From: Dentipellis sp. KUC8613
Lineage: Eukaryota > Basidiomycota > Agaricomycetes > Russulales > Hericiaceae
DNA: 41,839 nucleotides
Direction of reading: 5' to 3'
Assembly: GCA_002286715.1 (NCBI GenBank)
Contig: NSJX01000099.1
Coordinates: forward strand, 3,050 to 44,888
Shown: positions 1 to 19,640 of the stretch, one piece after another
How the letters are laid out: each line of letters starts with the position of its first letter
How positions within the stretch are numbered: position 1 is the stretch's first letter
Made by a program: the position numbers and the translations under genes
Notes under the pieces: generated by a model
Databases searched by the model: none
The model's input: the letters and a program-made list of their open reading frames with translations, nothing else
Told to the model about the DNA's origin: nothing

Positions 1-948
1 CATAGCGCAATGTGCGTGTTACATTCAGGGGTTGCGCGGGGAGCGCACAAGCCATGTTCGAAGTCCTCGTAGCAGCAGGGGATCCGCTGACCCCCACCCG
101 ACGTAGGGTTGGCCAACCTTCAGGTGCGGGCCGACCGCGTACGCAACAGTGCAGCCCGCCGTTTCACTTTTGAGGTGCGTGACTGACAGACCAGACACAC
201 ATATTAGTTTTTCAATGAAGCGGAAGTGGTTGCACCAGATACCGGACTTAGGGCTATCCATGGGGCAGAATACGCCCTCCCCACTGTGGCGGCGGGAGGA
301 GATGGGTATGGGACTGTTGGCATTATGGATCACACGGACAACCTTACTCAGGAAAAGAGGCATCAATGCGGCAACGCCTACCGCAGACGTAGGGCTGGCC
401 AACCTTCACGGTGATGAGAACGGTTTACCCTCTATGGGAATATGGCCACCATGTATATATCGGCAGGGTAAGAATGGGAGGCATACCACCCGTCATAGGG
501 CTGTAGCCTTCCCTTCGGGCCGACGCACTGGTCCTCCCCTTCGGGCCGACGCACCGGTTGACTTCGATGAACTGCGCACAATACTCGGGCCGAATGCAAC
601 CATTTTTCGGGCGTGCTCATGCTCGTATCTCCTCGAGGGCTGTGTGACTAATTGCGAGCGCCCACAAAGGTCTTTACTATTAGCATAGGGCTTCTGGCTA
701 GAGATTGACCAACCTTCCACCACCAAAATAAGTCGCTTGACCTTCTGATGACCTCGCCGCCTGTATTCTGTCGAGGCGAAGGACGGTCACACAGTCACGG
801 TCACGGTCAATTGATTCCAAGGATCGTTGTGACGACGTGATGCCTGATGTGGCGGCCTAGGCACATGACGCCACACGCCCACGTGACGGGGTCACGCATG
901 GTCACAATCGTTCTCACCGGGACCTCAACGACTTGAAGTCCAACCACC
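1..948. repeat. Left non-coding flank of the KDZ element with short repeats
   Basis: No convincing gene is present; open frames here overlap on both strands and have no recognisable content. The block holds three exact copies of the 9-mer TCGGGCCGA (515, 541, 585), all in this orientation, plus a one-mismatch copy near 126. The motif GACGTAGGGYTGGCCAACC occurs at about 100 and again at about 386. Near 785-905 there are repeated GTCACG/CACGTG words directly upstream of the first gene, which may be promoter elements. The layout (motif-dense, gene-free, opposite motif orientation to the right flank) fits the subterminal region of a DNA transposon. The actual terminus was not found and may lie left of the window. 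Confidence 0.5.
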
Positions 949-2941
949 ATGTCCGAGACGACGTCCCACCTGACTGGCCTCTTTTCCGCGATCCGCGTTC
1001 TCACCACGCGTGTCTGCCACGCTCTCGTCGCGCTTTCTGAAGACGAGAACCCCGATATCGACTTTTGGAACGGGCATCTCTACGCGGAAGTGGTGCGGCG
1101 TTCTCGTTTCGCATTCGGCGTGTACTAACCTTTTGCAGAGTCACTTCGCAGAAATCATGCAGGAGGTTCCTGCTGGCGTCCAGCCACCTGACGTCGGTCT
1201 TCTTCAAATCCTCGGCAACGAGTACGTCACGGCCGCGAACGAGGGCACCGAGCCCCGAATCGTTGCCTTCGCGGCCTCGTTCTGTGCTCAAATTGAGATT
1301 CCGCGGGGGAACGGCTGGTTTGAAGGGGACATGGGAGAGAACCAGTGGTGGTCGCCTGAAGCGCGTGCCAATTCCCAAGGTGCGTAATCGCTACATCTCT
1401 GCTCCACAAGGACTGACCGGCCGGATAGCCGCCCCATCAGATTGGGAGGAGCGCAACGTCGAAACAGGTCTCCTCGACCCCGACGCGAATGCTTCATCTG
1501 GAGACGTTCCCGAGCCGTCGAATCTCGAACGTGCAACAAGTCCGGCACCTGGGTCTCCTCCCCATCCCGACGCGGACGCAACGCCACGTCAGAGCAAACG
1601 CCGTCGTCCTGAGGACAACAATGCCGCCGGTGATGAGCAGCACGAGCACGCGGACGGCGCTGGTCATGACAACCGGCGCCAGCGTGCTAGGGATGACAGG
1701 GGCGAGGACCGCCATTCCGAGCACGGCGGGGAGGAGGGATCCGTGCGGACAGAAGAGCCCGAAGACGGTGACGGGGCCGACGAGCTGGAGGAGGGTGGAG
1801 ATGAGCAGCCCGTTGACAACAGTGCAACATCGCGTCGTCGCTCCAGGCGGAAAGCCGGAAAGATGGACCCCGAGAAGCACGTCCATCCCGCGGGCTCCGT
1901 GACCCTCGTAAGTCTCTAGGTTCAATTTCCTCGTTCTTCTCAAAGCTCACAGATATTTAGATTCCGGCTTGCAGCGAGTGCCAGCACATGGGCTGGGAAC
2001 AGCACTGCAAGCGCAAGCCGGACTACAACGGAGCCTGCAACCTCTGCAGCTCCCGCAAGACGTCCTGCTCCTGGACCAAGATGCCGAATAACCCCGATGG
2101 CACAGCTGCCCGCCGTGGCCCCCCTTCCAAGACGTCGAATAAGACAGGGAAGCCGAACTCAAAGGGCCCGGTCCCCAATGCAACTGCCGCGCCCGTGCGA
2201 CCGCGCCGCAAGGCGGCGCAAAGTAAGTCTTCTGGCTACATCAGCCTTCATCTCCGCAACTAACGCGTCTTGAACAGAAGTCAAAAGTGCGGCGTATATC
2301 GATGATTCCGAAGCCGAGTTGGAGGATTCGGCACCGGCCGTGGTTGGGAAGGGCAAAGGGCGAGTTCGGGAGGAGACCCCCGGTGCGTCATATTTGCCAT
2401 CGCACCTCTGCGGTATTGACTTTCAGCGACAGTTGAGCGGCCGGGCTTCTCCCGGCTTGCAAGCACCGCCGACGCAGACCCTCGCCTGCCCACCACCACC
2501 GCAGCACCATCCGTCGCCGCCGGATCCTCGGGAGCGCACTCCCATGCCTCCCAGGCATCCAGGGATAGCGCCCGTTGGCAGGAGTTGATCGACCGTACGT
2601 TGATTCACGCCAAGAGCAACACCCGCCTAATTGAAGAAAATCGAGCAGAGGTCCAAGATGTCCGGCAATTGGTCGACCAGCACGCCCTCATAGCGAAGAA
2701 GCACACCATTGTGCTTGAGGACGCCGTTGGAGACATCGTGCGGAACCGCAAGGCGATCCAGGCGCAGCGTGCTCTCATAGAGCAGCAGAGCGCCCGCATA
2801 GAGCAGCAGGACGCCCAGCTCGCCAGCCAGGCTACCGCCATCGCCACGATCTGCACCCACCTTGGCATCGACATCGGCCCGACGGAACTCGACATCGGCC
2901 CGAACGACATCCCGCAGCCGGAAGAGCCCCAGGGCGAGTGA
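949..2941 (+). CDS. Uncharacterised KDZ-element protein with a Zn2Cys6-like cysteine cluster and C-terminal coiled coil (580 aa)
   Basis: Six exons (949-1089, 1139-1379, 1429-1907, 1961-2222, 2278-2382, 2427-2941) join into one open frame of 581 codons including stop. Intron 1 has a perfect TACTAAC branch site before TTTTGCAG. The N-terminal ~125 residues look globular; residues ~130-285 are very acidic/basic low complexity with a KRRRP nuclear-localisation-type stretch. A cluster C291-x2-C294-x8-C303-x9-C313-x2-C316-x6-C323 resembles a fungal Zn(II)2Cys6 binuclear cluster, except that the second spacing is 8 instead of the usual 6. Residues ~465-555 form a strongly predicted coiled coil rich in Q, E, A and I. 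Two TCGG-S-CCGA copies sit in the last exon and encode the paired IGP words. Function unknown; DNA binding and oligomerisation are inferences. It is convergent with the next gene. Confidence 0.75.
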
Positions 2942-3325
2942 GGTAGTTGTGCGTTCGGTCATTGTTCGTTTCCATGATGTATTTCAAGGTTTTTATGCCA
3001 CAATTACGATAGCTAGTCTCCTTCTTGGCATCTAGAAGCACTTGTACCTACACATATACTTGCTAATGAAAACAATGCTTTCCCCTCCTCTTGTTGATCA
3101 GTGCAGTGGGCCACTGCATCAGACTCCCATCTGCAATTAGTTATACCGCATCCACCCTTTCCACGTCATCTCGCAGGACACCGATGACTCATGCCATGCC
3201 GTGCTTTCTGAAACGCAAATGCAAACAATCATTAAGTGATTACATGTTGACTCGGCCCGGATCATTCAAAGCCTCGGCCCGAACGTCTAAGCTCGGGCCG
3301 ATGGACAGTGTCGGGCTGAAACTGT
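2942..3325. other. Convergent 3' spacer with motif cluster
   Basis: This is the gap between the stops of two convergent genes. It has no gene but holds exact motif copies at 3274 and 3293 in opposite orientations and a near copy at 3252, within about 50 bp. Confidence 0.6.
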
Positions 3326-6300
3326 CTACATTGGTGGCATGCCTGCAGTTCTTGTGCGCTTCCGACGACCCTCCTGACTGTCAGATATCACTTCGCTCCA
3401 GCCTCGCTTTTTGGGCCGTTTTCCATCGTCCCCCAAGACGTCCTCCCATCTCCTCTGAGCCGATGGTTTCCGAAATGATGTTCTTGCAGGTGCCCTCTTC
3501 GGTGGCAGTTCGGCAGTTTGCCCAAATCTCACATGCTTGGCCGAGCCCGTAGATGTGGCAACGCCCGGTCCAGTGGCTGCCTCCTCAGGCCGCTGTGTGT
3601 TCCTGAGTACACTTTTCACAGCACTCGAACTGGTTCTTGATGAAGACTCCGAGTTTCCTCCTCTCCCCGATTGCCCAATTATCCGAAGGGGACGTTGCCC
3701 CCCTTTCCTCTGCGCCGAGCTGCCCCCCACTGTTCGGAACAGGGTTGTTAGCAATCAGCTGATGTTTGAACTCATGCAACTCACCCATTTCCCGTTCGGC
3801 CCGAGATGCGTGAGCTCCTTCGGCCCGAGGTTCATCTTGATGCTCGGGCCGTGTTGCCTCGTTGAATTCGAGACGAGGTGACGAAGGCTGAACTGGAGAC
3901 TGGGGGATGGAAAGTCGGCTACGTGTCAGACCTCCTCCACGGGGAGACCTGTGTTCATCCCATTGAGGATTCTGCGAGTCCGCTTGAAGTCCTAATGCCG
4001 TCGGGGAATTAGTAGCTGGTCTTGAAGTGTCGGATACCAGTGGGGAACCGGCAGGCGGATCTATCTCCTGAGCGGCGGCCTGTTCTTCCTCTAGAAACGT
4101 AACCTGGAGTGTCAGATCGTCTACCATCTTCGGGTATATGTCTTCCAGTAGCGCCTCAATGACATCGAATTTGTTGCCGAGGGATCTGCTCTTCAAGTGT
4201 TTCGGAAAGTGGTATCCCAGATTGTCCCCGGTCCACGTTGTAAAGTTTGGGAACATATCACAAGCAGACCTATACAGGAAAAGCTCCCTATGGAGCATGG
4301 CAAACACCAGCAAGACTTGCGATACTCGCGCGCCTCCAACTGATGTACCACCATAGGATCGCCACGGGTGGGCGGACATCCATTTTACGAGATTTTCCAC
4401 GTCTTCGTCTCCTGAATAGAATAGCCTCGGAGTCCAGGGAGATCCGTAATCCCAGCTCGCCCACTCGGGATGGTATTCGGCCCGAGGAATTTCCTCCTCC
4501 CATATGTCATTCTAAATTGTGGTCAGTATTGCGAATATTATATTGCAAAAGAAAGCACCTACCTCGAGGGCCGCCCACAGCGTCATGACCTCCATAAACT
4601 TTGTGCTGGAGTACACGTGCAAGAGATACCGAGCTCGCTCCAACGAATTGAGAACGACTTTGTTCGGTGCACCGGGGGTGTACCGGACGGGAATTGATGC
4701 AAACGGTGGTACTCGTTGAGTGATGTCCCACCAAATGATACTGAGTTGGATATTAACAAATGTTGCCCATTCATTGGTGTCATCGAGGGTGAGTGCTTGT
4801 TCTGTGTCAAAGGGGTAGTTGTCCCCTAACTCTCCCGGTGTTGGTGGATCAGGAAGTGAGTCGGAAAGACATTTCAACCATATTTCTCTGCCAATCATTC
4901 CGAGGGCACGCACTGCCGACCAGACCCCGACCGGAAAGATGTACTTCTCTTCTTCAATCCAGGGCTTCCTCTCGCACCACTCCCGCATCTCTTGGAGACT
5001 TGTAGTATCCAACCAAAAGTCGAGCGGTAACCACGGCATATCATAATCCCATGATATGAACTTGTATTTGTTATGTATCGAAGGGAACTTCACCTTTCGT
5101 GGGGGGAGTATCTGCTAACGTATGTGAGATTCAGTTACGGATTGATCAACTGCCGGACACACCTCCCCATGCTCCAGGGCAAGGGTTATGTCCTTGTAAG
5201 TTTGGTCATTGTAGAGTTTCTGTATGAAGTCCACTCGGGCCGAGCAATCGTCTCGGCATTCTGCCGGGGAAGGAGGGGGAGTGCTGATAGGAAACACCTC
5301 ATCTCGATTCACCACACGCTCGTTTCCAGGTCCCCAAAGCTGGCCAAATATCTCGGGATTATATTCCTGTGGAGACTTCCCTCTGATGCCTACGACTGGA
5401 GATTTTCCCTTTCTCCGTGGCTGGGTGGGTTCCACATACTCGTCCTCGGTGCCATTACCACTAAATTGGTCTGCATGGTAATCTCCATAATCATCCGACA
5501 ATGGTACACCCAGCGTAGACCTCCTGACCTTCCGAGGTCTGAGGTTGGGAGGAGACCGACGCCCAAGATCTTCATCCTCTGTTTCATCGTCTTCGGGCCG
5601 ACGCTCTGGTGCCCTGCTCTCGGGCCGAGGTGTGTCGGGCCGATCTACCTCACGCCGATGTCCTTCGGGCTGACTAGTGTCGACCCGGGCATCATTCGCA
5701 GATGATTTGGCTTTTGCGAGTTTTCTTCTCTCGGCGACAGTAGCTGCTGCCCTTTGTCGCCTCTCCATTGCTTCCCTTTGCATCATGGCTGGAAGAGCGG
5801 CTACAGGGACAATGGATTTCTTATGCCACACAGCCTTGAACTCGAGTATCGGCTTCCCTGCTTGTCGGCGTGTCTCCCAATGTGCAAGCAAGGCCGATAC
5901 GTCATCGACCGTAAGGTGAGAAGGATCCTTCCATCTGAAGGTAGGCGATGCGAGATACTCTTGGTCGATAAAGTCGTTCGGAAATTCACTGAGCTTTGTC
6001 CAGGGGACTCCCCTGTTGCTCTTGCTCGCCGAACCTGGAATTCACCACCTTGTCAGCCTGCCATGAATGTCCAGAATATGTTGCGCACCATATGCATGCT
6101 TCATTACATCCCGGACCAAGTCCTGCTTCGTGTCTCCGTCCCATTTCGGGTCATAAGTCGCATATACCGGCCGTCCGTTTGTGTCACTTTCCACGACAAC
6201 ACGCATGTGGCCTGCCTTAGTTTTCGGTGGTGGCGGTGGTTCTACCAGATTGTGAACTCGTGCATCCGCGCAATTGAAAGGAACCATACCATCAAACGAC

Positions 6301-7446
6301 TTGACATATGCATCAAATGCCTCATGCATCTTCATCTCCCGCCAATTGGGTAGAGTCTTCTTGAACCCTCGTCCCCCCACCTCATCCATGTAGTCAAATC
6401 TGGAGGCGGGATCAGCAATTCGAATCGTGAGGAGGTGCATGGAACACACAGGTATTGGACTCTTTCCCCTTTCTCATTGACCCAGGTAGACATCATGACG
6501 ACTGACATTCCCAACATGCTATGCATTTGGCTTGTAAAACCTCGCATGTGTTTCCATGCGTACTTCTGTGCCAGACTACGCGACCCATCAGGAAAATTAA
6601 CCCAGGCGAGAGGACTAGAATGGCGTACGCCTGCTGTATCTTCGGTGGGACGCCCTGCTCTCGCCACGCTTTTGCTGTCACCTCAAACATTTCATATTCT
6701 TCGTGAGTCAGTTTGTTCTCCACCTTTGTAACCGCATCCTGATAATAATCGATGGCCGGCTTCTCCCTCTCCGAGTCGACTTCATTCTTTTTAAAGTAGG
6801 CGATTACGTCGCGCACACCATAGTTCCTTGTCCATCTCTTGAAGTCCTTGGGGTTCCGTTCTCGGCCGTTGTCGTAAAGATACTGCTTCGTAACCTGAGG
6901 AAAATGAGCAAGGCAATAATTTATCCACGCAGCGTATGCACTGGCACCTTTTTCCAGTACGTATCCTCCTCATCCGGGTAGGGAAATTCGGCCCTGAACT
7001 CGTTTTGTATCTCCTCTACAACCTTGGTCTTGTCGGCACTTGAGGCCCGTCGAAATCGGTCAATGACCTCCTCCAACCAGGCTTCCTCCCGAATGTCGAG
7101 AGGTCGCTCCGAAGGGTCTGGCATATGCACAGCAAGGGGGATACAATGGGGGAGGGATATCCGTGCAGGTGTAGACCTCGAACATCCCCCGTCTCCAAGG
7201 GCTCCCATCTGGTCACATGACTCTCAACCGGGCCATCAGCGCGGACAAATCTACTTCCCTGTTACCCCTTCCGGAGCATACCCTCTGGCCGCCGCTCCCA
7301 AGTGTCGTCTGTCGCATGTACCATTGACACAAGAACATACCAGGTTGCAAGAAGAGGCGTTCCTCAAACATGGCTGCATCAGATGCCGTTGACCGAAGCC
7401 TTCCCTTCCGCTCTCCTGCAAAGGCAGTTGAGAAATCCGAGGCCAT
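3326..7446 (-). CDS. Large uncharacterised KDZ-associated protein (1193 aa)
   Basis: Eleven exons (7446-7341, 7284-7266, 7208-7177, 7117-6948, 6894-6629, 6575-6450, 6399-6089, 6034-5163, 5111-4563, 4511-3785, 3729-3326) join in frame to 1194 codons including stop. Two are micro-exons of 19 and 32 nt. The last intron has GTGAGT and a GCTAAC branch, which moves the true stop to 3326. I recall similar proteins as common in Agaricomycete genomes but can name no domain. Visible parts are a helical N-terminal segment (EEVIDRFRRASSADKTKVV), a conserved-looking centre (KYAWKHMRGFTSQMHSM), a PWTKLSEFPNDFIDQEYL block, a basic/acidic hinge, a Trp-rich region and a basic C-terminus. Seven or more motif copies lie in its exons. 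The start at ATG 7446 is the best fit; an in-frame ATG at 7524 is an alternative. It is divergent from the TET gene. Confidence 0.75.
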
Positions 7447-7475
7447 GGCGTAATCAGTCGGGCCGGCTTGGTGAC

Positions 7476-7491
7476 CTCGGCCCGGGCCGAG
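7476..7491. promoter_or_regulatory. Perfect 16-bp palindrome between divergent genes
   Basis: CTCGGCCCGGGCCGAG is a perfect palindrome made of two overlapping half-copies of the element 9-mer. It lies 30 bp upstream of the chosen start of the 1193-aa gene and 150 bp upstream of the TET-like start, so it could act as an operator or enhancer for both. If the longer start at 7524 is used it would be coding. The regulatory role is inferred. Confidence 0.4.
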
Positions 7492-7643
7492 CCCAATCAG
7501 ACGCAATATTGTCATCAGGGACATCAAGATCTATGTCAGATGTCATCTTAACCCTGCGTTAGGTGCAGGAATGCATACTGCAAGACGCAGCAGCACTGCT
7601 AATTGTGTGTGCAACGCGGCGGAAACGCGCCTTCTCAACAGTC

Positions 7644-8938
7644 ATGTCCGCCCCCCAGTCCCCTTCGCCCATCCCTATGGACGAACATATCTCTGCATAC
7701 ATGTTCTCTACCTTCCATGACCGTATTCGAGCAATGAAGGACGAGAAGGAGCCTGAATGGACGCCTTGCGCATCCGGTGCAGTCATCTCGGCCGAGCTTC
7801 GCTGCGAGTTGGACTACATAACGTCGGTGCTCGCACAAGCATTCTACACACCGAGTGAGTGTTTCCGTGCTACCATTGATCGTGCTGACCACTCGTGCAG
7901 TCTACGTTACCTGGGAAGCGAAGCGCTACGAAGAGAAAGTGCCAAGGAAAGGAGCAGTCAACCCGACCAAGGAGGCCGAGTTGGTATCGCAATTTCCGCC
8001 CTGTTCCCCCTCGGAGATGCTGTACATCGGCGAAGCGAGGACAGTTGTGGATCGAAGTGGTCATATTATAGCTTGGGTGTTGCCTAGACTGCTAGACGAA
8101 GAAAGACAGGTGCGTCTTCGCAATGGGGGTGCGCCGACAGGGTATCTAATTGAATACAGAAAAAGATGATTGAGGCCACGAAATCTATGCCTGGCCTGCT
8201 TCACAAAGGAAGGACGGCATCGGGAAGTGACCAAGTCAGACACGCCGCGCAACTCTTTGTCGGAGAGGAAGAGAATCCTCAGATCACACCGGGCGTTGTA
8301 AACTTGTCACCCGGGTGGTATCAACGAGGTCACGACGTGCGTACCACAACACTGCAATCGGTGCATAGATTATCTAATGAGTCTACCAGACGGCGGAAGA
8401 TGTTCTCGCTATCTCGTCGAGCCTGCGCACTGCCGAAGGGCGTGAATGGCTTCGCAAGATTCACGAGACCAACGCCATCATTAGTGGCATCCTACGCATC
8501 ATCCACCCGGAGTTGTACCAGGCAGGACGTGTTGCGAGAGAACGCGTCAAGGCACAAATCTCGGACCCAGCTGTTATAGAAGAATGGGCTTCTGTCTTCA
8601 ACGGTGTGTCGGTCATTTCCAATCGGGAGACCCTGCCACATCGTGATTACAATTCGCGGGCCGAGTGGTATGACATCCTCGCCTCAGTGGGAACGTATGA
8701 GGAGCTCTCTCTTCATCTCCCCGGTCTCGGCCTGGCGATCGACTACAGCCCTGGGACCGTGGTCGCTCTGTTGGGGAAGCTGCTCCTCCACAGCGTTCCT
8801 CGATGCACGCCCGACCGAGTATGTTATGCGTGGTGGTTTCGAGAGAATATTCACAGAAACCTCATGGTCAACCTGCCTGGATTGGCGGTCAGACAGAAGA
8901 TGATTGCGAGTGGATATGATGGGAACATGTACATATAG
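7644..8938 (+). CDS. TET/JBP-family 2-oxoglutarate/Fe(II) dioxygenase, KDZ-associated (381 aa)
   Basis: Four exons (7644-7854, 7901-8109, 8160-8336, 8390-8938) give 382 codons including stop with no break. The C-terminal ~180 residues match the fungal TET/JBP double-stranded beta-helix. They include the HRD triad part (H283, D285) after a SNRETLP lead, a W-Y-D segment, PGTVVALLGK before the distal iron ligand H333 in LLLHSVP, and R342 in DRVCYAWW as the 2-oxoglutarate-binding arginine. The N-terminal part has the DRSGHIIAWVLP and NLSPGWYQRGH blocks that I associate with KDZ-linked members. The family oxidises 5-methylcytosine in DNA (or thymine in JBP). Here all metal and co-substrate residues are present, so activity is plausible. 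The stop lies 134 bp before the transposase start, on the same strand, consistent with the known KDZ-TET association. In-frame codons upstream of 7644 lack an ATG. Confidence 0.88.
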
Positions 8939-9072
8939 TGTTATCCTACATAGTAGACTGTTGCTATCTTGTCACGTGACCGAGAGCTCAAGCTTGCATT
9001 GCCTAGTGGCGCGTTGTGCAACCTCGGGCGCCTATCACACCTCCTTCCCCTCAGTACTGAGTGTTTGCAAGC

Positions 9073-12000
9073 ATGGCTGAACGACTTGACAAAACAAACC
9101 TGATATACTCCACATTCACCAAGCATGGAACACGCTCCCGGAGGGTAGACAAGGCGGTAAAGCGGAGCTTCAAGAGGGATGCACCTATCGACAGTCAGTC
9201 GGGATCGTCCAAGAGAATGAGGCTTGAAGTCCTAGAGGAGCAGACAGGCGTCGAGGATGTGAGGGAGAAGGGTTCGGAGCCACTTCTTATTCCTCGGGGA
9301 AAGGTGAGTTCGGGACTCCTGTATTCGTCTTGCAGTGATCTCACTTTAGTAGACGGATAGAGACAATCTGATCGACTATCTGGCGAACCGTGAGGAATGC
9401 CTTGATCACATTCTCGAGCGCGAGGCTCCGCAGTCATGTTGCTCAACAGCTGAATGTCAAGGAGACTCTCGCTGGCGGTGCGAGAGCTGTTTCGGCCGGC
9501 CAATGTACTGTGACAGCTGTGCAAGGGAAGCACATCACTATCAACCCTTCCACCGAATGAAACTCTGGACAGGAACACATTTCCGGCCAGCATGGTTGTC
9601 GGAACTCGGTGTATGTGTTCATCTAGGCCATCAGGGCCGTCGGTGTCCACAGAAGGAAGTGCAGAACTTCGAGCAGACGGTGGTGAGGCCGAACGCGCGG
9701 AAAGGCAATCATGGCAAGGTCTGACTTGATCTTTCTTCGGCCCGAGACGAGAAACCTGACTTCTGCAGTCGTCCGAGATTCCCGATATGTCCAGTGACCA
9801 AAGTAGCGACACCGGTGAAGAAGACTGGGAGGATGTTGCAGAGCAAGAGCCAGAAGACAGAGTGGGAAAGGAACCAGAAGAACCGAGGACCGACTTTAGT
9901 CACAAGGGCCGCAGGCGCATGGTCTTGGTGGATACCTCAGGAATCCATGATTTGTATGTTGAGGTCTGCGAGTGCCCTGACAGTCAGTCCATCCACGCAC
10001 AACTGATGATGGCTGGCCTCTTTCCTGCTACTCTTCGGGATCCGAGGACGGCTTTCACATTCTCTGTGCTTGATGATTACCGCCTTGAGAATTTGGAATG
10101 CAAGACCTCCGCGTACCACTACTACGGCAAGCTCCGCCGCATCACAAATCCAGCTTTTCCGGGGTCTGTGAAGGTGAGAAGCATTTCATTCTGAGATGCA
10201 AGAACTGAACAAACGTCAAAGGATCGTTACCGGGAGTTGTTGAGGGTCTCCAGACAATGGCGCGATCTGAAGACCCGAAAATGGCATGCGTTCGGACACA
10301 CCGACGTTTCCCCTAAGCCGGGGGAGCTGGCGACATTTTGCCCTGTGTGTTCCCAGCCAGGCATCAACACGCCTGCAAACTGGAAGGATCATCCGTAAGC
10401 CTACACGTCGCGATACCTAGATAATGGCTGAACCATGGCGTCAGAGAGCGTCACATTCGGGTCACCATGCTCGACGGCAATATGAAACAAGTCCAGCTGT
10501 ACATGCGTCGGCCCGAATTGGACGTGCAAGTCAGCTCGGGACTGGGCTTTATGGTTATGCCTGAGTGGTATGAGGAGCATTTGAAGCATTCCAAGGAGCC
10601 CCGACAAGTATGTGCACATGGTAATAGACATCATGTTGGAACTCAAATTCTTCCAGAGGTCTACTTGTAACGCCCATCGGGCGGTGGACAAACGCAACGC
10701 GAAGCGAAAGAACCTCAGGGTCACTGGAATTGGGACCGCCGCGTGCATGCATGGCTGTTTTCTGCCTCATGCAACAGTCGACTTCTACGGAGGGGAGCAG
10801 TAAGTATATCTCTTCCTATCAGTAAGCGCATGCTCAGGTTCTTCACTAGGCAACGCATGATGGATGTCTGCTCGGTTTACTCCCTCCAATACAATTCTGA
10901 GGGCATACCGATAATGATGATCATCTACGACATCATGTGTCAATACGGCATTCACTTTGTTGCACGCGTGCACTCGTACAAGCTATTGAACCTGCCGGCA
11001 AATGTGGAAATACGGAAGGGCATTGGTCTTTTCCACATTCACGGTCATGTTGACGAGTGCTTTGCACGGTATACCCCTTCCTTTCTCCCAGGCAGCGGAG
11101 AAGTCGACGGAGAGATTGTGGAGACACTCTGGCCGCCACTCAATGCCATTGCACGGAGCACCGAGGGAATGAGCATCTCAAGCCGCCAGGAGACAATTGA
11201 TGAACATATGAGCGACTCGAACTATAAGAAGTTCGTTGGAATGGGTGAGTCGGTCTTGCCTTCTATCTACATCTATCGGCCCGAGGTGCTTCGGGCCGGG
11301 TAAATCAACTCGGCCCGAATCCCCTCGGCGGCCGACCTGACCTTTTCGTCAGTTGTGGCCCTCAAGCGTCGCCATCGGGCTTCCGTCGCTGGCCTGGCTA
11401 CCGCAGACACCGTCTACCGCCAGTTCTGCGAAAGTGCATCTACAGAGCAGCTGAGACGATGGAAAAAGGCTGAGGTCGATGCACAGACCGGTCGCCAACG
11501 GACGCCTTCGGCAATGGATGTGTATGATGTCAAAACGAAGAAGGCTGATGGAAAGGCGGTAGTGCAGAAAAATTTGGTGGAGAAGGAACAAGGCGACGGG
11601 GTTGTCCGCGGTACTACATCGTGGCTGAGCCAGGGCCTGAAACTGCAGGAGCAACAGTGAGTCGTGCAACCATTCGGCCCGAATAAGTACTGACAGCCTT
11701 CGGAGACTTCAACTTGCAGCTCATGCTCGCAAGCTTGGCATCCGCTTAACTGCCAGTGATGCCAACAAGCTAGAGGATAAGCGACGCCTGCTTCAGGGTC
11801 GTATCGACACGTACGAGACACAGGCGCCTGACTACATTCCACGGGTTGCAGTGGACCCCCAGGGCCCCGGGGCTATCGATGAAGTGATAGAGCAGGAGGA
11901 GCTCAACGACACCTCCTGGGATGACCTTGATAATCTCGACCCAATAGCACCTCCCCGGACCACTCCGCGGCAGGCTGCAGTCCCTCCCGAACGACTCGCA

Positions 12001-12834
12001 ATCACACTTCCGTCGACCGTCGGCCCGAAAGTATGGCAGGAAAAGAAGTGGGATGCGTTGAGACAAAGGGAAATCAAGCTTCGCGAAGGCCAAATCAATG
12101 ACCATTTGCACGAGTTGCGAATGGTGTTAGCCCAGAAATCGTGCATCTTCCGACTTCATGTCCGACCCAGTAAGAGTCAAGCCACAATGACAAGGGCCTG
12201 GAATGCAGTGAAATCCGTCGACAGTCTGGTGCAGCAGCATGCACGGGCATACAGCGTTGCTAGGCAGGCCTTGGTAGCTTTGAAGGCCCCGCAAGAGCTG
12301 CTCACCAGATACCAAGTCTTGAAGAAAGAGCATCTACAGGTGAAGACGTTCACTATTGACCCGAAGGTCATCGGCCAGCGCAACACGAATCTACCATGGT
12401 TTTGGCAGCTCGGGGTAGGTGAAACGGGTGAAGCAAACACGTATATGAATGACTGTAAGTCGAGTTCGCGATATTACAGTAACAGCACCTGACGGAGGTT
12501 ATCCCGTTCAGTCTACAGGGTTCAATGGCTTCGAGCGAAGGCACGACGGGATAGATGGCTGGAGGAGCATGTTCGGGTGCTTACGGAGATGAACGCATTT
12601 GTACTCTACTGTGAGTATCATGCCGGAGCTTGGGACGCGCGAAGGGAGAAGAGCGAATCTGCCCAGAAGAGAGGGCATGCGGTGTATGCCGCGAGGAGGG
12701 TTGCTTTGTGGAGGGAGATGGGAGAGCAGGCATTGGACACATTCAAGGCCATTCTGTCGGCCCGAGAAGCAGATGTCGCGTTTCGGGGAGGTGACCCGGT
12801 TCCATACCCTGATGTTTATGCTTCGAGACAATAG
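9073..12834 (+). CDS. KDZ (Kyakuja-Dileera-Zisupton) transposase with CxC2-like cysteine cluster (1086 aa)
   Basis: Ten exons (9073-9303, 9353-9718, 9769-10173, 10222-10394, 10445-10607, 10657-10799, 10850-11244, 11353-11656, 11697-12454, 12512-12834) total 3261 nt with every phase matching, so the gene is intact. Residues ~78-330 hold the zinc-binding CxC2 region (C-x2-C pairs in WRCESCFGRPMYCDSC, then the GVCVHLGH block). Residues ~395-590 are the RNase H-fold catalytic core: D402 in MLDGN, the TGIGTAACMHGCFLPH block, D521 in IIYDIMCQ, and E582/E585 in VDGEIVETLW. The C-terminal ~450 residues are helical and charged. Introns 2, 7 and 8 and several exons carry the element 9-mer. Full length and intact catalytic residues suggest a recently active copy. 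It acts on DNA in the nucleus; the terminal sequences it cuts are not identified here. Confidence 0.95.
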
Positions 12835-13108
12835 ACCTTGTCGGCCCGAATTGTCTTGTCGGGCCGAATGTCGTCCACCATTGCGTTCCAGTACATTCAT
12901 TTGGCTCGAGCCATCTATCAGGCCAAACATCGATGCACAGGCTTTCGAGGGTACTTTACTCGGGCCGATACGATTCAAAACACATGTATTCGGGCCGAAA
13001 CGCGACAACTACGACAGCGAGTGCTCATGTTGGAGATAGCCAAAAAAAAAAAAAGACAAAAAGCAAGAAAACGTATGTTTACGCGGGCGCCATCCGTTGC
13101 GCGCGACT
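12835..13108. other. Convergent 3' spacer, motif-rich, with A-tract
   Basis: Four exact motif copies lie within 160 bp (12841, 12859, 12960, 12990), alternating in orientation, followed by a run of about 12 A near 13,044. No gene is seen. The spacer separates the convergent stops of the transposase and the 169-aa gene. Confidence 0.6.
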
Positions 13109-13780
13109 CTAATTCCCCTGCAACTTCGCCGTCGCGGCCTCGATCGTGCGCGCAAGGTGGTGGTACGCGTCCGCCATCTCCTGGTAGACGTCGCCGACGC
13201 GATCGAGTTCGGCCGGACTGAGGCCAGGCCCTGTGAAGACGGGCGACGGGGCCTGCGGGGCTCGCTGCCCAGCGGATTGCGTGGGTTGCGCGACGATGGC
13301 AGTGGCACGGCTGCCATCGGGTGTGCGAGCTGTGACAAAACTGCGTTAGTTGTATCCGTTGTTGGCCCGAAGTCATGTTGACGCACCCCTGGCTGTGTGG
13401 CTCCCAGATGCTTTCGGAGAAGCGTTCCCTTTTCCGTCGTCCACGCGAGCTTGCTTCGCGGGCTGGGATGTGCCGTCTGCGCGATATCGTGAGACTATGC
13501 CGTGCGAGTGCACACGCGACTTACCCGCGCTCGTAGCGCCCGATATCTGGTCGATGGGGCGCTTTTGCAGCTGCTGGAAGCCTGCAAAGGAGTTAGTTGA
13601 AGCAATCAGACTTTGACCGCCAGAATGCGGCGACTTACTGAACGTGCTGGCGTCTTGCGCCTGCGATGAAGGCGGCTGTGACGCGGCGGACCGGGGCAAG
13701 GGTGTCACGCCGCCCGGCTTCTTCGTACTCTGCGGCTGAACGCTCCCTTGTCTTGCTGGGTCCTGGCTCGCGTTGGACAT
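13109..13780 (-). CDS. Small uncharacterised KDZ-element protein (169 aa)
   Basis: Four exons (13780-13639, 13581-13525, 13476-13387, 13329-13109) splice into 170 codons including stop. The introns have GTAAGT, GTAAGT and GTGCGT donors and GCAG/ACAG acceptors. The first ~100 residues are Ser/Pro/Gln/Lys-rich and probably disordered. The last ~35 residues (from LSPAELDRV) form an amphipathic helix that could mediate protein contacts. No family is recognised. It is divergent from the 433-aa gene, with 166 bp between start codons, so the two probably share a promoter. Confidence 0.65.
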
Positions 13781-13946
13781 GTTGGGGATTGAAGTTGAGA
13801 CTTTGATGGCGAATGGCGGTGGGCCGAGTCTTACATACAAGTTCAACGTGTGGCGTGGGATCATCACGTGATGATAACCGTCACCGCGCATTCCGTTTAG
13901 GGAATCGACGTCCTCGTTGCATCAGGACGCCGCTGGTCCTCTATCA

Positions 13947-15394
13947 ATGGCCCACTCACCTTCGCCGCTCCCCATGGAGTCTCTAGCGGACTACGTCCGC
14001 GACCTGAACCGTCAAGCGTTCTATTCCGCCCTTGCGTTCGCCAGCGCCGGTGTTTTTGAGGATTATAATATCGTCTTCCGCTGGCAGGTGGCGCTTGATC
14101 AAAATATTGTGGTATGTTTTGTTTCCAATGGCTAAAGAGCCGGTGATATATCTGACAGCCACTCAGAAACAGGTTTCCAGACTGGTGGAGCTCCGCGATG
14201 GCGTCACAGACGACTTCGGGGAAGACACGCCGGCCGGCCTGCTTTGGCAGGAGTCTCGCAACCTCAAGTACTCCGACGTCGACGTATCGTGGTGGGCGAG
14301 GAGTGTCTCCTCGTCGGCCGAAGCAGATCCGGCGCTCGCCGCGCGGTACGAACCTTTCGACGACGAGGAGGCGTACTGGTGGAGGAAATTAGTCGATGAC
14401 CCCCGTGAGTTATAGTCGGCTTCATCTCCTTCCAGCTCACATTAGTAGATACACGCGACTTTCCCGACGACGGGATTGTCGACATTCTGGGTATCTTCGG
14501 CGAGAGGGGCTCTCCACCACAGACACCTGCCCCGCATTCCCCGACGCCTGCACCCTCCCCCATCAATCTCATCACACCCACTCCCAAGACCACGCGGGAG
14601 GACGGAAACGTCATCCACCTCGAGGACACCGACGACGAGCGGTCCGGAGCGCCCTCTAGCCCTACCCTTCGCCGCAGCGGGCGCAAAGGGTCGAATACCA
14701 CCCCCGCCAAGAAGGGACGAAAGAGGAAGGCTAGTGCGTCACCTGAGCGGGACGAGGAGGGGAAGAGCGGCCCGAAAGGACGCGGGAGGACGGCGAGGAG
14801 AGGGTCTAAGGCGGGCCGGGGGAAGTCAGGAGGGACTCAGCGCGGGGGACGGAAGGGCGCCAGTGAGAGGGAAGTCGCAGAGGTGCAAGGAGATGACGAG
14901 GAAATGGAGTCGGAGGACGACGAGCATCGGGAGGAGGATGGGGCCGACGGAGAAGGGAAAGGGAAGGGGAAGGGGAAGCAGAAGGTGGACAGCTCGTCCC
15001 CGCTGGCGAGGAAGGGGCCTCCCGGCCAGCGCCTGAAAGGTAAGTTTGGCCTTCTTCAAATGATAAGTGCTCATTTATGATCTTAGCATATATAGAACTT
15101 CCTGCTCCTGTCCACCAGCGTCAGTCGAAGTCCGTCGCGAGCACCTCCGCGAAGGCCACGGCGAGCGCCCCCGCCTCTCGCCCTGCATCACCCGCATCAC
15201 CCGTCGATCGCGCGGACGACCGGCCCCGACGCGACGCCCCCATCCGGCAGAAGCTCGAGTACATCATCGACAAGTTACACACCATCGAAACGGCGGTGAA
15301 TGAGATCAAGGCCCGAGATTCCACGAAGAACAACATGCCGGAGGCCATTCCCGTAGAGCAGGCGACGAAGCCGAAGCCTCGCCGCAGGAAGTAG
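13947..15394 (+). CDS. Uncharacterised charged nuclear-type protein (433 aa)
   Basis: Four exons (13947-14111, 14167-14404, 14449-15039, 15087-15394) join to 434 codons including stop. The N-terminal ~135 residues are probably globular with Trp-rich SWWARS and YWWRKL words. Residues ~150-335 are disordered with alternating basic runs (KKGRKRK, GRGRTARRG) and a KGKGKGK stretch, typical of nuclear DNA- or chromatin-associated proteins. The C-terminus has a short predicted helix (RQKLEYIIDKLHTIETAV) and ends in KPRRRK. Its layout (globular Trp-rich N-terminus, charged middle, helical tail) parallels the 580-aa gene at the other end of the element, but it has no cysteine cluster. Function unknown; a near-motif copy (GCGGCCCGA) lies at 14769. 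Confidence 0.7.
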
Positions 15395-15510
15395 GGTGGA
15401 CGGTAGCCACATAATAATGTCTTGTTTCTCATTCTCTACTCGTTGGGAGCGCCGCGGATATGTTTTTTGTAGAGTACTCAAGAAATTGATTGTGATGTCA
15501 TCTTTTTCAA

Positions 15511-15642
15511 ACGTGATCTAAGTTCGCAACATCCACCGGCCCGAATAATACTCGGCCCGAGTGGTTTGATCCCATCAAACGTGATGCGTTTGCAACATCC
15601 AGCGGCCCGACCAATACTCGGCCCGAGTGGCTTAATCCCATC
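15511..15642 (+). repeat. Two direct copies of a 66-bp unit
   Basis: The unit begins ACGTGAT, continues through GCAACATCCA and ends in GTGGYTTRATCCCATC. GCAACATCCA recurs at 15526 and 15592, which sets the period at 66 bp. Each copy holds one exact 9-mer and one near copy 15 bp upstream of it. Confidence 0.8.
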
Positions 15643-15700
15643 CTTACCAATCGCTCCATAAAGTTGAGCCGAGAGTGCTGGAGTACTCACGGAATTTCAT

Positions 15701-16920
15701 TCGGCCCGACTGGTGTGCACCCACAGTCTACCAGTAGATCGGACTGCAGGGCGAGCTTTCCTCACCCCAGTCGACATCACCAAGCTTGAGTTCGTATGCA
15801 ATGTAGCTCTCTTTGTTGGACAAATCTTTACAAGATGCTGCTTGTGTCCACAGGACAAGATGCACATTCACCGACTAATCGAATAGTCGGCCCGAGCCAT
15901 TCACCGAGGGGTTACTGATGGCTCGCTGGGTGTTCCAACGCCCCAATTCTCGTCGCCCATCTTCCGTTAATATGCCGTTGTTTTTTTATTCTTGGGGATG
16001 CCTATAACCGTTGGTCGATGAGTCCTCGGGAGGTAAGCTCATTTCAGGGAGGATTGACCAATAATTCGGCCCGACCCACTCGCATCGGGATCTCGGAATG
16101 CAGGCTACGTGTTTCGCAACCCAATCCCCGTCGCCGAACTTCCGACCGTATGTTACCCTGGTTCTATAGTCTAGAGTAGGTGTAGGCGGCGGGGCGTGCG
16201 TCCACAGGACGAATGGTGTGTCAGTGGTAACGACCGACGGTTCGGCCCGAGAAAGTCATGTAGTGGATACCGATCGTACGCTGGGTGTGTCCCGCCCCAA
16301 TTATTGTTGCCCATCTTGCAAGCATATCCCACCGTTTGTCGCTGTGTAGGGGTGTGCAACCATTGGTCGTTGGGTCCATGGGGGGTCTGCCCGTTTCGGG
16401 TGGGATTGAAGGACTATCCGGCCCGATGGAGGGCTGGGTATGCCCAGCCACTACACTGTATGATACACGCATTCAATCTATCAGGGTGGGTGCACGCGGC
16501 AGTGCGTGCGGCCGTACAACGAATGCCACATCTGTGGTTGTATTGAACGATGGTTCGGCCCGAGGAATGCACGCAGTGGGTGTGGATGGCACGCTGGGTG
16601 TCCAACCCCCCATTTCTCGTCGCCAATGTTGCAAACGCATGTCATGGCTTGTCTTTGCGTTGTGGTGGCTGGCTGTTGGTCGCTGCGTCTACGGCAGGTG
16701 TGCCCATTTCAGGTTGGATTGGATGACCATTCTGCCCGTCATGCTTCGGGGGGTACTGATGGGAGGCTGGGCATGCCCTGCCCAATTCTTGTCACGAAAT
16801 ATGGATATATGTTTTAGGTGCTACATACTACTTTGGGTCAGTGCAGCTGATGGCGCCTGTGCCAACAGGATTAGTGCCAGGTTCAGCTGGGATTGACCGA
16901 GAATTCGGCCCGAGATACTC
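15701..16920 (+). repeat. Degenerate ~176-bp tandem array, right subterminal region
   Basis: The 9-mer or a one-mismatch copy recurs at 15701, 15887, 16066, 16242, 16418, 16555 and 16905, with a decayed copy near 16,729. The spacings are 186, 179, 176, 176, 137, 174 and 176 bp. Between motifs the same words return in order: GCTGGGTGTCCAACGCCCC, TCTCGTCGCCCATCTTGCAA, a TTGGTCG word, CATTTCAGGTTGGATTGACC, then ATTCGGCCCGAG. All copies have the same orientation. No gene is supported here despite open frames of 60-200 codons. Confidence 0.85.
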
Positions 16921-17400
16921 CCAACGAGAATATTGGCGAGAGGCCGGGTGTTTACTGTCCCAATTTGCATGGCAAGACTTGTATATACATGCCATGTTTG
17001 TGCACAACCCATTCATGGTTCGAATGATATTCCAAACAACCAGGCTTAATTAGTACCCGCTCGTCTGGTGAGTGCTGCACTGGAGACCTAGCCTAGCACA
17101 CAGGTTACCTCGGTCGCAGCAATACATTATGGTTACAGTAATGCAGGTTGCTTCACTTCCTGTATCATGCAGCCAGTGTCTATCTGGTCGCTTTGAAATC
17201 CATGCTGGTTGCAGCCCGTCAGTGCCTGAAACCCCCCAACCCTCTCCAAAACCAGCGCCGAGCGCGGGAACATGCATTCCTATGCATGGCCAGTTACGCT
17301 CTACACTACCATCACACCTGGGCATGCCCCTCCCCTTCCGATACATCTAGTGTATTCGGCCCGGGAGGTAATAATGCGGCCCGATCCATCCTACCACCTG
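16921..17400. other. Non-coding tail of the motif-bearing region
   Basis: No gene is seen. The last motif-like words are TCGGCCCGG at 17356 and GCGGCCCGA at 17376, after which the family stops. The right end of the element should lie near or soon after this point, but no terminal inverted repeat matching the left edge was found. Confidence 0.4.
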
Positions 17401-17407
17401 TCCCGCT

Positions 17408-17525
17408 CTCGGCCGGACCATCGTCGACACGCGTCGTACTGCTCCGGCCGCCATGTAGCAAACCAGTGTCCCATACGTCCGGCCGGACCATCAACAACAC
17501 AAGTGCAAGCCATCCGGCCGGACGC
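17408..17525. repeat. Cluster of GGCCGGAC words
   Basis: Within about 120 bp the word (C)GGCCGGAC recurs at the CTCGGCCGGACC, GTCCGGCCGGACC and ATCCGGCCGGACG sites, with a CTCCGGCCGCC variant. This is a different short motif from the 9-mer and directly abuts its right limit. Confidence 0.6.
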
Positions 17526-18050
17526 GGCTGCCCCAGCTAACACGCTTATTTGGTGTCCGGCTACTCCATCTGATACTGGGGTAATGTGCTACAATATGTG
17601 GTGTCGCTTGTCCCTTTGTTCTGTACTTCTTGCAGCCCATCTTCTTGTTACTGAGTGGCATTGCCGTTGATACTCTACATTACTCTCTTGAGTCCGAATG
17701 AAAATGTTGCGTTCGCTTACCAAATACATGAAGAAAACATTTTAGAGAAAAGAGAAATACTGAAACACGTACTTTGTTGTCTCATTCACGAAGACGCGGG
17801 CGCTTACAACTTGGCGTTTCGAGACTTGTCCCATGGGCGTCTGGTACTAATGACTTAGCGTTTCAAGGCTCGTCGTCTTCTTCCTTCACGTCTTGTTAGA
17901 AAACACTTCAACAACTTTCCGCTCACTTGAGCTTCGACTTCCGTTTACCTCCGGAACACAGGGATTAATATAAATTATGAGGAATAGTTATTAAAAATAG
18001 TAATATGAGGGAGCAGTGAGAGGCCACCAAAGTAATGCTTTCACGGTAGC
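17526..18050. other. No feature seen
   Basis: Ordinary composition, no recognisable coding frame or repeat. Confidence 0.4.
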
Positions 18051-18061
18051 CGGCGGAATAT

Positions 18062-18127
18062 GAGCAGGACAATTCAGAAGGTGAGCGGGACATTTCGGAA
18101 GGCGAGCGGGACGTTTCGGATGGCGCG
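18062..18127 (+). repeat. Three copies of a 21-bp unit
   Basis: The unit GAGCGGGACATTTCGGAAGGC and two variants follow each other directly, with a partial fourth. Confidence 0.75.
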
Positions 18128-18319
18128 CGGGCCGTGGACCGCGGACCGCACAAGCGCCCCAGCCGATGGCCCGCCGAAGCGGCACAGAAGCGCCCAGCCG
18201 TGCCGGACAGCAGTGCCCGCAAATAGACGCGCCGGGAACGGTGCCTAAAATGGATAGATATGCTGACAAATTCGGATGTCCCGAGGCCCTACCGGTATGC
18301 TACAATAGCTGCAGCAAGG

Positions 18320-18432
18320 TTATAACTACGCTGCAGGAGCGCTATAAGTACGCGGCAGGAACGCTATTACTACGCTGCAGGAACGCTATTACTACGCTGC
18401 AGGAACGCTATTACTACGCTGCAGCAGCTATG
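18320..18432 (+). repeat. 22-bp minisatellite, about five copies
   Basis: The unit is TACTACGCTGCAGGAACGCT plus two bases. The three central copies are nearly identical and the outer copies are diverged. Each unit contains the palindromic core CTGCAG. Confidence 0.9.
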
Positions 18433-18519
18433 ACTACATGTAATTCTTCCTGCAGTTATTGTCACTACGCTTTTGCAGCTGTTCCTGCAATTTACTTATA
18501 AACTTAATCACTATGGCTC

Positions 18520-18965
18520 TCTACGTTGACGTGCCTTTGTGCACGCTTGTGCATGCTGCCACCCGCCTGCCCCGATATCTCAGCACCGCTCCAGCGCGCC
18601 CCTGTCTGCGGCATCCGTCCTTGCGCCATCGCACCATCTCACCCTTCCTTGCTCGCTCGCTCGGCGCCTGCACCCGCCTGTTTGAACTTCGCGCGCCCTA
18701 CCCTGTATCGGGGCCTGCGCACCCTCTTCCCAGTATTGGCACCCCCTCTGCCCAGTGCCTGCATCCCCCAGTCAGCGCCGTCCGCGCTCTCGTCATCGCG
18801 CCTTCTCGTCTGTGGCTGTGCTGTCACAGATTTGCGTCTCGGCACTCTGCAGCGGTACCCTCTTGTATCTACATACATCATATCTACATACATCCTTGTA
18901 AGAGCACAGGGACATATATTAGTGTACCTTGTTCTTAAAATATTATGAATAAATTCTTGTGGCTT
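18520..18965 (+). repeat. Repeat copy inverted relative to 27,850-28,200
   Basis: The words GCCACCCGCCTGCCCCGA, CCAGCGCGCCCCTG, TTGAACTT and ATGAATAAATT occur here in order. They occur in the same order on the minus strand of 28,200-27,850 with small differences. The copy ends near the polyadenylation-like AATAAA. A palindromic word CTGATTCAT..ATGAATCAG follows at about 18,976. Confidence 0.7.
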
Positions 18966-19640
18966 CGTATGTTCTGATTCATCTATGAATCAGTTCTAAA
19001 TATGGGGCGGCCCTTAGGAACTCGCGCGACCTCGCATCGCCCCGTTAGGAAGTCAGTTCTCACGGCTCGAGCCCCATCTGTTCACTTTTCGACATGTTTG
19101 TTTTCTGTATGCTCTCATATGTAACCAATATAGCTGAAACTTTGTGTGCACATTGAAAGCTATAATATACATGTATCCTGAATTTTTCGTAATTCTTCAA
19201 GATCAAAGTCGTCTGCAAAGTCGAAGTCGCGTTGTGGAAAAGGGCTCTATTGACGAAATCTGCCGATTCCGAGCCCAATTATGCAGTAAAAAATCTCTCA
19301 TTCTTTTCCTTGCTCACAATATGTACTGCGCATACTCCCTAATTTATTTTGTATTTTGGAAATTTTATCACAGCCTGAGGAAGCATTCTGATCTGTCGAC
19401 GAGACCACGCGTGCTTTGCGGGAATTGCCGAAGGCAGTCGTGACAGACGCGTCTCGTCGTTCCAGCTCACTACACTCCTCCTCTCCCATGTCCCATCCCC
19501 CAATCGCTCGCCACTATTTCTCCTCAATACGTCACACACGCGCTCGTCGGTTCAGCAAAGGAAGATTGAATATGGGAGGTTGGGTAATGAGGGGATAGCA
19601 GCAGTGGTCATACTGTCCAAGGTACGTTGTCATGCCTTCT
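18966..19640. other. No gene seen
   Basis: AT-rich sequence, then a mixed stretch with Ser/Arg-rich short frames. Nothing recognisable. Confidence 0.35.

Follow-up and report, generated by a model that had tools for sequence, protein, structure and literature searches.

Family-specific CGG-pair words along TET-bearing KDZ elements of Dentipellis sp. KUC8613, candidate binding sites of a co-encoded zinc-cluster-like protein

The window analysed here is a stretch of 41,839 nucleotides from contig NSJX01000099.1 of Dentipellis sp. KUC8613, and its first 17 kb hold an element that encodes a KDZ transposase together with a TET/JBP dioxygenase. This element is covered from end to end, as an initial annotation of the stretch had noticed, by the palindromic 9-mer TCGGSCCGA (S is C or G, and the reverse complement fits the same pattern). 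Among the four TET-bearing KDZ families of the genome, strong words of this kind occur in two and a moderate one in a third, and none could be trusted in the fourth; an open reading frame (ORF) with a six-cysteine cluster lies upstream of the TET gene, on the same strand, in all four. With modest confidence, the words are read as family-specific binding sites of the element's own zinc-cluster-like protein, which would direct the co-encoded TET against CpG methylation. The words, their family limits, the six-cysteine gene, the geometry of CGG triplets (in two families) and the retention of CpGs can be seen directly in the sequence; from these we infer binding, partnership with TET and an anti-silencing effect.

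The family-A word in the window

The analysis covered one genome of 34.1 Mb. Family A comprises the window (contig C171) and a sister copy on contigs C46 and C156, family B the copies on C151 and C116, family C those on C84 and C1, and family D the one on C24. Words were counted across 20 stretches including the window, the sister pieces and the other KDZ loci, with incomplete flanks for several elements.

About 33 copies of the 9-mer had been reported over the KDZ island and none beyond it. This was confirmed, as 33 exact copies lie within 515–16913 and the remaining 24.9 kb of the window hold none. Dinucleotide shuffles of the whole window (n = 100) contained 0.43 copies on average and two at most, and none of the 100 reached 33. 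The site at the end point originally given, 17364, is a one-mismatch copy (TCGGCCCGG), and the last exact copy lies at 16905–16913. For the pattern TCGGNCCGA, positions 1–17500 contain 33 exact and 22 one-mismatch copies, and the 23.8 kb from 18001 onwards contain 0 and 2. An unbiased test of all 7–10-mers, with correction and with copies in independent flanks counted apart, ranked TCGGSCCGA first in the window element (33 copies vs 0.31 expected, corrected log10 p -43). The centre base of the exact copies is C in 22 and G in 11, and never A or T.

A genome-wide count, which the initial annotation had proposed, gave 241 sites against 227 for the word read backwards, the control, and enrichment of the word across the genome was thus rejected. 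Density is about 1,900 per Mb in the element and about 5 per Mb elsewhere, once the at least 58 sites in family copies (33, 18 and 7) are removed. Close pairs with a gap of 0–30 number 17 genome-wide, 16 of them in family-A copies and one on C126, and all nine pairs with a gap of 31–61 lie on the contig of the window and on C46; the backwards word forms no pair in either range. The one pair with a gap of 0–30 that lies away from the known copies of the family, at C126:60252-60293, may be what is left of a copy.

The features of the element are listed below in window coordinates. Sites were sorted with rough manual gene models, in which the exon limits of the TET gene and of the minus-strand gene come from ORFs; the spliced KDZ model is out of frame and was used solely for sorting sites into exons and introns.

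515–16913, no strand: span of the 33 exact TCGGSCCGA copies (count)
949–2941, plus strand: gene 1, encoding a 581-amino-acid protein; the exon model agrees with public protein P0001 of the same organism (97%)
1970–2068, plus strand: six-cysteine cluster C-x2-C-x8-C-x9-C-x2-C-x6-C of gene 1 (pattern scan); its model weakly resembles Zn2Cys6 domains
2874–2903, no strand: two words in the last exon of gene 1 (counts and gene model)
3376–3377, no strand: split point of the sister copy, with Helitron-like ends at the break (C156 aligns to 3379, C46 from 3377)
3585–7223, minus strand: ORFs with relatives in families C and D and seven words inside (ORFs, protein comparison)
7644–8938, plus strand: TET/JBP dioxygenase gene, domain in ORF 8381–8938, start and exons rough (Pfam)
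9074–12834, plus strand: CxC2 and KDZ transposase gene, in which three introns and three exons contain words; exon limits rough (Pfam)
12841–12998, no strand: four words directly 3' of the KDZ stop codon (counts)
15552–16913, no strand: 3' non-coding block with eight words and, from about 15832, seven decayed tandem-like units (counts, unit alignment)

By these rough models, 17 words are intergenic or in untranslated regions, seven lie in the minus-strand ORFs, two in gene-1 exons, three in KDZ exons, where they occupy three codon phases, and four in KDZ introns that total 521 bp. The earlier claim that selection or amplification acts on the DNA word is in line with this placement in exons, introns and spacers. 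That the words are a functionless by-product of local duplication or mutation bias is highly improbable, even though some copies sit in the decayed tandem units (15832–17004) and others form local pairs such as 515/541. Independent, unrelated flanks surround 30 of the 33 copies, by which pure tandem amplification was rejected as their origin. The units themselves have a mean column identity of 56%, and their longest invariant run (GCCCG) falls inside the word, which is exact in five of the seven. CpG retention above background in two families separately, described below, also speaks against a by-product.

Words of the other TET-bearing families

The genome contains at least 15 KDZ loci and nine TET matches. 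Seven of the latter exceed the Pfam cut-off, and all seven are at KDZ loci, namely the window and C46 (A), C151 and C116 (B), C84 and C1 (C) and C24 (D). Viral contigs contain no TET relative. Protein comparison found TET, CxC2 and KDZ common to the four families and the minus-strand ORFs common to A, C and D. The 9-mer is present 33 times in the window, 18 times on C46, seven times on C156 and twice in 23 kb on C24; C151, C116, C84 and C1 have none, and it is absent from the stretches of all 12 KDZ loci besides the window, its sister copy and C24. The initial annotation had proposed that the word marks the element as self and that sister copies and other KDZ loci should be compared. The sister copy does carry it and a self mark is still the best reading, but a universal mark of KDZ elements was rejected, as the 9-mer is dense in one family only among the 15 loci, while other TET-KDZ families have a different strong palindrome (B) or a weaker word (D).

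In family B, the element-wide palindrome CCCGCGG occurs 54 and 34 times (2.25 and 1.51 expected), with the consensus ATNSCCGCGGSNAT; TNSCCGCGGSNA is found 31 times on C151 and 18 times on C116 and in no other of the 20 stretches. Genome-wide enrichment of this word was likewise rejected (205 vs 150 backwards). Its pairs give 39 rows in the genome, 19 on C116 and C151 and 20 scattered, vs 18 for the control, which is less clean than in family A. The family-D word ACCGAGGA occurs 11 times in the element pieces (0.77 expected) and not in the insert of that element.

Several other candidates were rejected. For family C, GGCATTAC forms one local array some 0.4 kb long, the excess of ATGCCGA is weak (13 vs about 2.8 in each copy), CTTCACC reaches a corrected log10 p of -4.1 in C1 but 9 vs 1.9 in C84, and a GC-rich word of C84 is not among the top words of its sister C1. 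On C24, CCGAAGTCA is a local array, and CGCCGTC words lie mostly in the insert and the flanks.

At the eight loci without TET, nothing convincing was found in 3.3–3.6 kb around KDZ (8/8; best corrected log10 p -1.9 on C162, and -1.7 on C26). The same test gave -5.3 and -3.6 for A, -13.0 and -9.3 for B and -3.2 for D; C84 reached -7.2, but the word behind this value is inconspicuous in the sister copy C1. These loci bear on the possibility that the CxC2-KDZ transposase reads the words in the service of transposition (for synapsis, target immunity or a density-based recognition of the ends) and not of anti-silencing. KDZ is encoded in every copy compared, the words are dense near both ends of their span, and other transposons have repeated transposase sites near their ends. 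However, the loci without TET encode the transposase too and show no convincing word in the pieces tested (C26 has the D word in a targeted count), the words lie in introns and all along the element, and the CGG-triplet geometry points to a Zn2Cys6 protein. A role in transposition is thus considered unlikely.

The zinc-cluster-like protein as proposed reader of the words

The gene-1 protein consists, by eye, of an acidic N-terminal part, a six-cysteine Zn2Cys6-like domain and a coiled-coil-like C-terminus. Protein searches matched only two Dentipellis proteins, and BLAST within the genome found C156 (gene 1 itself), D, C39 and, weakly, C96 (E 0.05). The distance from the six-cysteine ORF to TET is 6.5 kb for the window, 7.0 and 7.1 kb for the two B copies, 7.9 and 7.8 kb for the two C copies and 11.3 kb for D, where it includes a 5-kb insert; the ORF of C46 sits on the C156 part of the sister copy. 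A fifth zinc-cluster-like gene, 33% identical to gene 1, is at C39:1-2121; neither KDZ nor TET has a match on that contig, which is 21 kb long.

Comparison of five representative domains shows no variation at the six cysteines and at one lysine. The usual Zn2Cys6 spacing is CX2CX6CX5-16CX2CX6-8C, which B matches exactly; A, D and C39 have CX2CX8CX9CX2CX6C, and C has longer loops. A profile of the five domains gave 11 weak matches in the PDB, eight of which were Zn2Cys6 chains (Hap1/Cyp1, Ppr1, Cbf3b and Gal4), and 12 of 13 Foldseek matches of the family-A domain model were also Zn2Cys6 chains. In the best profile match, Hap1, the two halves align in swapped order. This swap relative to Hap1 applies to the gene-1 domain, C24:6216 and C39:615, which might form a circularly permuted Zn2Cys6 subfamily. 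The domain evidence is weak, below the Pfam cut-off throughout, and the domain is therefore named 'Zn2Cys6-like'. The initial annotation had named the transposase and a cysteine-cluster protein as candidate binders; these may or may not include the protein favoured here (949–2941), which is distinct from CxC2.

Counts of CGG pairs covered spacings of 0–14 and three orientations. A single arrangement stands out in the window element, inverted CGG-N1-CCG (50 vs 7.1 expected, p about 1e-25). On C46 the same arrangement leads (26 vs 5.3), followed by direct CGGCGG (32 vs 10.7), and on C156 the direct pair (24 vs 9.1) is slightly ahead of the family-A arrangement (15 vs 4.5). The only outlier of family B is back-to-back CCG-N0-CGG (50 vs 4.7 and 33 vs 3.0). 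Among the 22 one-mismatch copies of the family-A word, 14 vary at the two outer letters and eight at the six CGG/CCG letters. Spacers of one and zero bases are unusually short for Zn2Cys6 sites. Both strong words are CGG-triplet pairs in differing arrangements, as Zn2Cys6 dimers bind; such dimers are described as typically binding inverted, direct or everted CGG pairs, with single triplets at some sites (PMC5559640).

The same protein might be an ordinary activator of the element's own genes, with the sites as redundant enhancers and TET uninvolved. In favour of this, the gene-1 protein has many acidic residues, activation is the typical role of Zn2Cys6 proteins, and 17 of the 33 sites are intergenic and four in introns. 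A few sites near promoters suffice for an activator, though, and the 33 copies of the element, of which 12 lie inside coding ORFs, greatly exceed that need, which makes this explanation improbable.

The sister of the window element is in two pieces. C156 aligns to window positions 1353–3379 (86.8% identity) and C46 to 3377–13368 (94.6%). Because the two contigs match neighbouring parts of the window, a compound of separate elements was considered; their common break, with ends that we take to be Helitron-like, fits one sister copy interrupted by an insertion, without proving it. Ends of this kind (TCTGATTC... and ...CACTAG followed by T) are at C46:10698 and 20659, C156:71360 and C24:9114-14122, and those on C24 appear to interrupt the minus-strand gene of the element there.

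Between sisters of families A and B, CpGs inside words are kept more often (87/107) than CpGs elsewhere in the alignments (998/1557; Fisher p 2e-4). This is found for A (43/50 vs 592/882, p 0.005) and for B (44/57 vs 406/675, p 0.011) alone. In the aligned parts of family A, 18 of 22 window words are kept as pattern, two of them (5593 and 2874) with only the centre base changed, C for G, and four words of the sister copy are absent from the window. Where one A sister has the word and the other does not, the seven base changes responsible, all in the arms, are CpG transitions without exception, as judged by eye; at another two sites the sisters differ by indels. Near two lost A sites, at a distance of 18 or 30 bases (3293/3311 and 5635/5665), a new site has been gained, a picture that resembles binding-site turnover. 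In family B, C116 preserves 19 of the 22 CCGCGG sites of C151, whereas the fraction for other hexamers with two CpGs is 0.578 (p 0.004); C116 has six more sites that C151 lacks. The share of CpG transitions among substitutions is about 31% between the window and C46, 22% between the window and C156 and 23% in the B pair, which is consistent with past CpG methylation.

Such transitions suggest that the element has been methylated, and elements are often recognised by host factors, so that a DNA-binding factor of the host could read the word and silence or tolerate the element. A site used against the element should decay fastest, however, and the CpGs of the word are better preserved than the rest; a co-inherited factor would also account more easily for a different word in each family. 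A host reader is therefore regarded as very unlikely.

The favoured explanation is that the gene-1 protein would, as a dimer, contact a pair of CGG triplets, which are inverted and one base apart in family A (TCGG-S-CCGA) and back to back in family B (CCGCGG). Because the sites lie all along the element, the protein could coat copies of its own family and no other. Once bound, it would most likely guide or help the co-encoded TET/JBP dioxygenase, which would oxidise 5-methylcytosine and so undo silencing by CpG methylation in that family alone. New families might arise when protein and word change together. It is the combination of a zinc-cluster-like protein, a co-encoded methylcytosine dioxygenase and words resistant to CpG decay that suggests sequence-specific anti-silencing.

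Several points weigh against this explanation. The B and C proteins are tied to gene 1 by the cysteine pattern and not by BLAST, and the pattern is not exclusive, as its 12 rows comprise eight for the ORFs upstream of TET and the C39 ORF together, three CxC2 domains and one further, second ORF on C24. Pfam Zn_clus is over its cut-off of 21 bits in none of six proteins (best 16.4, for one exon) and has no match at all in C and D. When the B domain alone was searched against PDB sequences, five lipoprotein-receptor chains ranked ahead of Gal4, which came sixth (E 2.3); the Foldseek matches of the family-A model are weak (E 0.8–9), and confidence in the model of the family-B zinc domain is too low for use.

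The words raise further doubts. In family C (C84, C1), no element-wide word convinces, although the six-cysteine gene and TET are both there. The D word is weaker, is no palindrome and also occurs on C26 (3 vs 0.07), a 74%-identical relative of D in which TET was not seen. No exact word lies inside the TET gene of the window, and 16 of 22 window words are kept letter for letter where about 11.7 are expected. GC-rich words in non-element flank reach a corrected log10 p of -8 in the word test, and moderate values thus prove little. Direct CGGCGG is in excess in C46, C156, C and D (whole C24 stretch) and also in flank; in C84, C24 and flank this looks like what GC-rich repeats give. For TETs in mushrooms, non-specific action has been speculated upon in a survey that also argues that each serves its own family (PMC12730594), and in other mushrooms oxidised cytosine was reported as enriched alike in retrotransposons and DNA transposons (PMC8889193). 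Finally, all evidence comes from a single genome.

Known systems and further features of the element

The nearest known system appears to be VANDAL/VANC of Arabidopsis, of which this would be a fungal counterpart built from other parts; the likeness proposed is one of mode of action. VANC21 is described as binding YAGTATTAY, which is dense in its own family and rare elsewhere, and VANC6 as having other motifs (PMC5735166, PMC10398659). Shared with the KDZ elements are a short word dense in its own family and rare elsewhere, other words in related families, and a location partly in tandem repeats. A dense word of its own, with other words in other families, is found clearly in A and B, more weakly in D and not in C. 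In VANDAL/VANC, binding and a loss of methylation in the own family have been demonstrated, whereas the present system is known from its sequence. VANC21 words form arrays of one orientation, mainly in non-coding regions, while KDZ words are found in coding exons too and, in families A and B, are palindromic. Unlike VANDAL/VANC, the KDZ element pairs a zinc-cluster-like candidate reader with a TET dioxygenase of its own.

Kyakuja (KDZ) TET transposons of Agaricomycetes likewise combine a KDZ transposase with a co-encoded TET/JBP (PMC12730594); the main text of that paper does not contain the terms zinc, subterminal or binding site. With Ppr1, Hap1, Leu3 and Gal4, the element proteins share the six-cysteine cluster, a coiled-coil-like C-terminus (A and B) and sites made of inverted or everted CGG pairs; they differ in scoring below the Pfam cut-off and in having sites that coat a transposon.

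It is possible, and put forward tentatively, that TET-bearing KDZ families evolved private address systems independently of plants, each with its own reader and its own CGG-pair word over the full length of the element, exons included, by which its TET would demethylate no other family, and that, as reader and word evolve jointly, one genome holds several mutually deaf systems. A reader protein would reconcile service to the own family with the suggested non-specific action of TET (PMC12730594). No description of such element-wide words was found in the literature surveyed, and an earlier account (Iyer 2014) is possible. If the explanation is true, target choice by transposon-encoded mushroom TETs could be tested directly with one protein and one 9-bp site, and plants and fungi would have reached sequence-specific anti-silencing separately. 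The words may also act as fingerprints for grouping elements and as ready-made demethylation addresses in fungi.

The gene order of the element is gene 1, minus-strand ORFs, TET/JBP, CxC2-KDZ, further ORFs and a non-coding block up to about 17 kb. Pfam matches are strong for TET_JBP (PF12851, 80.5 bits vs a cut-off of 34.9, E 1.1e-22), KDZ (PF18758, 85.5 vs 26.6, E 5.4e-24) and CxC2 (PF18803, 89.9 bits, over its cut-off, E 1.5e-25). The minus-strand ORFs (3585–7223) are probably one multi-exon gene; six of them were scanned against Pfam, and no family exceeded its cut-off. A second gene at 13950–15394, with an acidic middle and a coiled-coil-like C-terminus, resembles gene 1 by eye and lacks the cysteine cluster; it has no Pfam match and none in families B, C and D, and might act as a partner of gene 1 or as its decoy.

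Neither end of the element was located: the CA..TG ends with a 7-bp target duplication described for Kyakuja (PMC12730594) did not turn up with starts at about 1–1000 and ends at 16900–19000. At the 3' edge of the word-bearing region there is a different palindrome, TCCGGCCGGA, at 17478 and 17513; CGGCCGGA is also present at 17410 and 17443, and the palindrome cluster spans 17410–17522.

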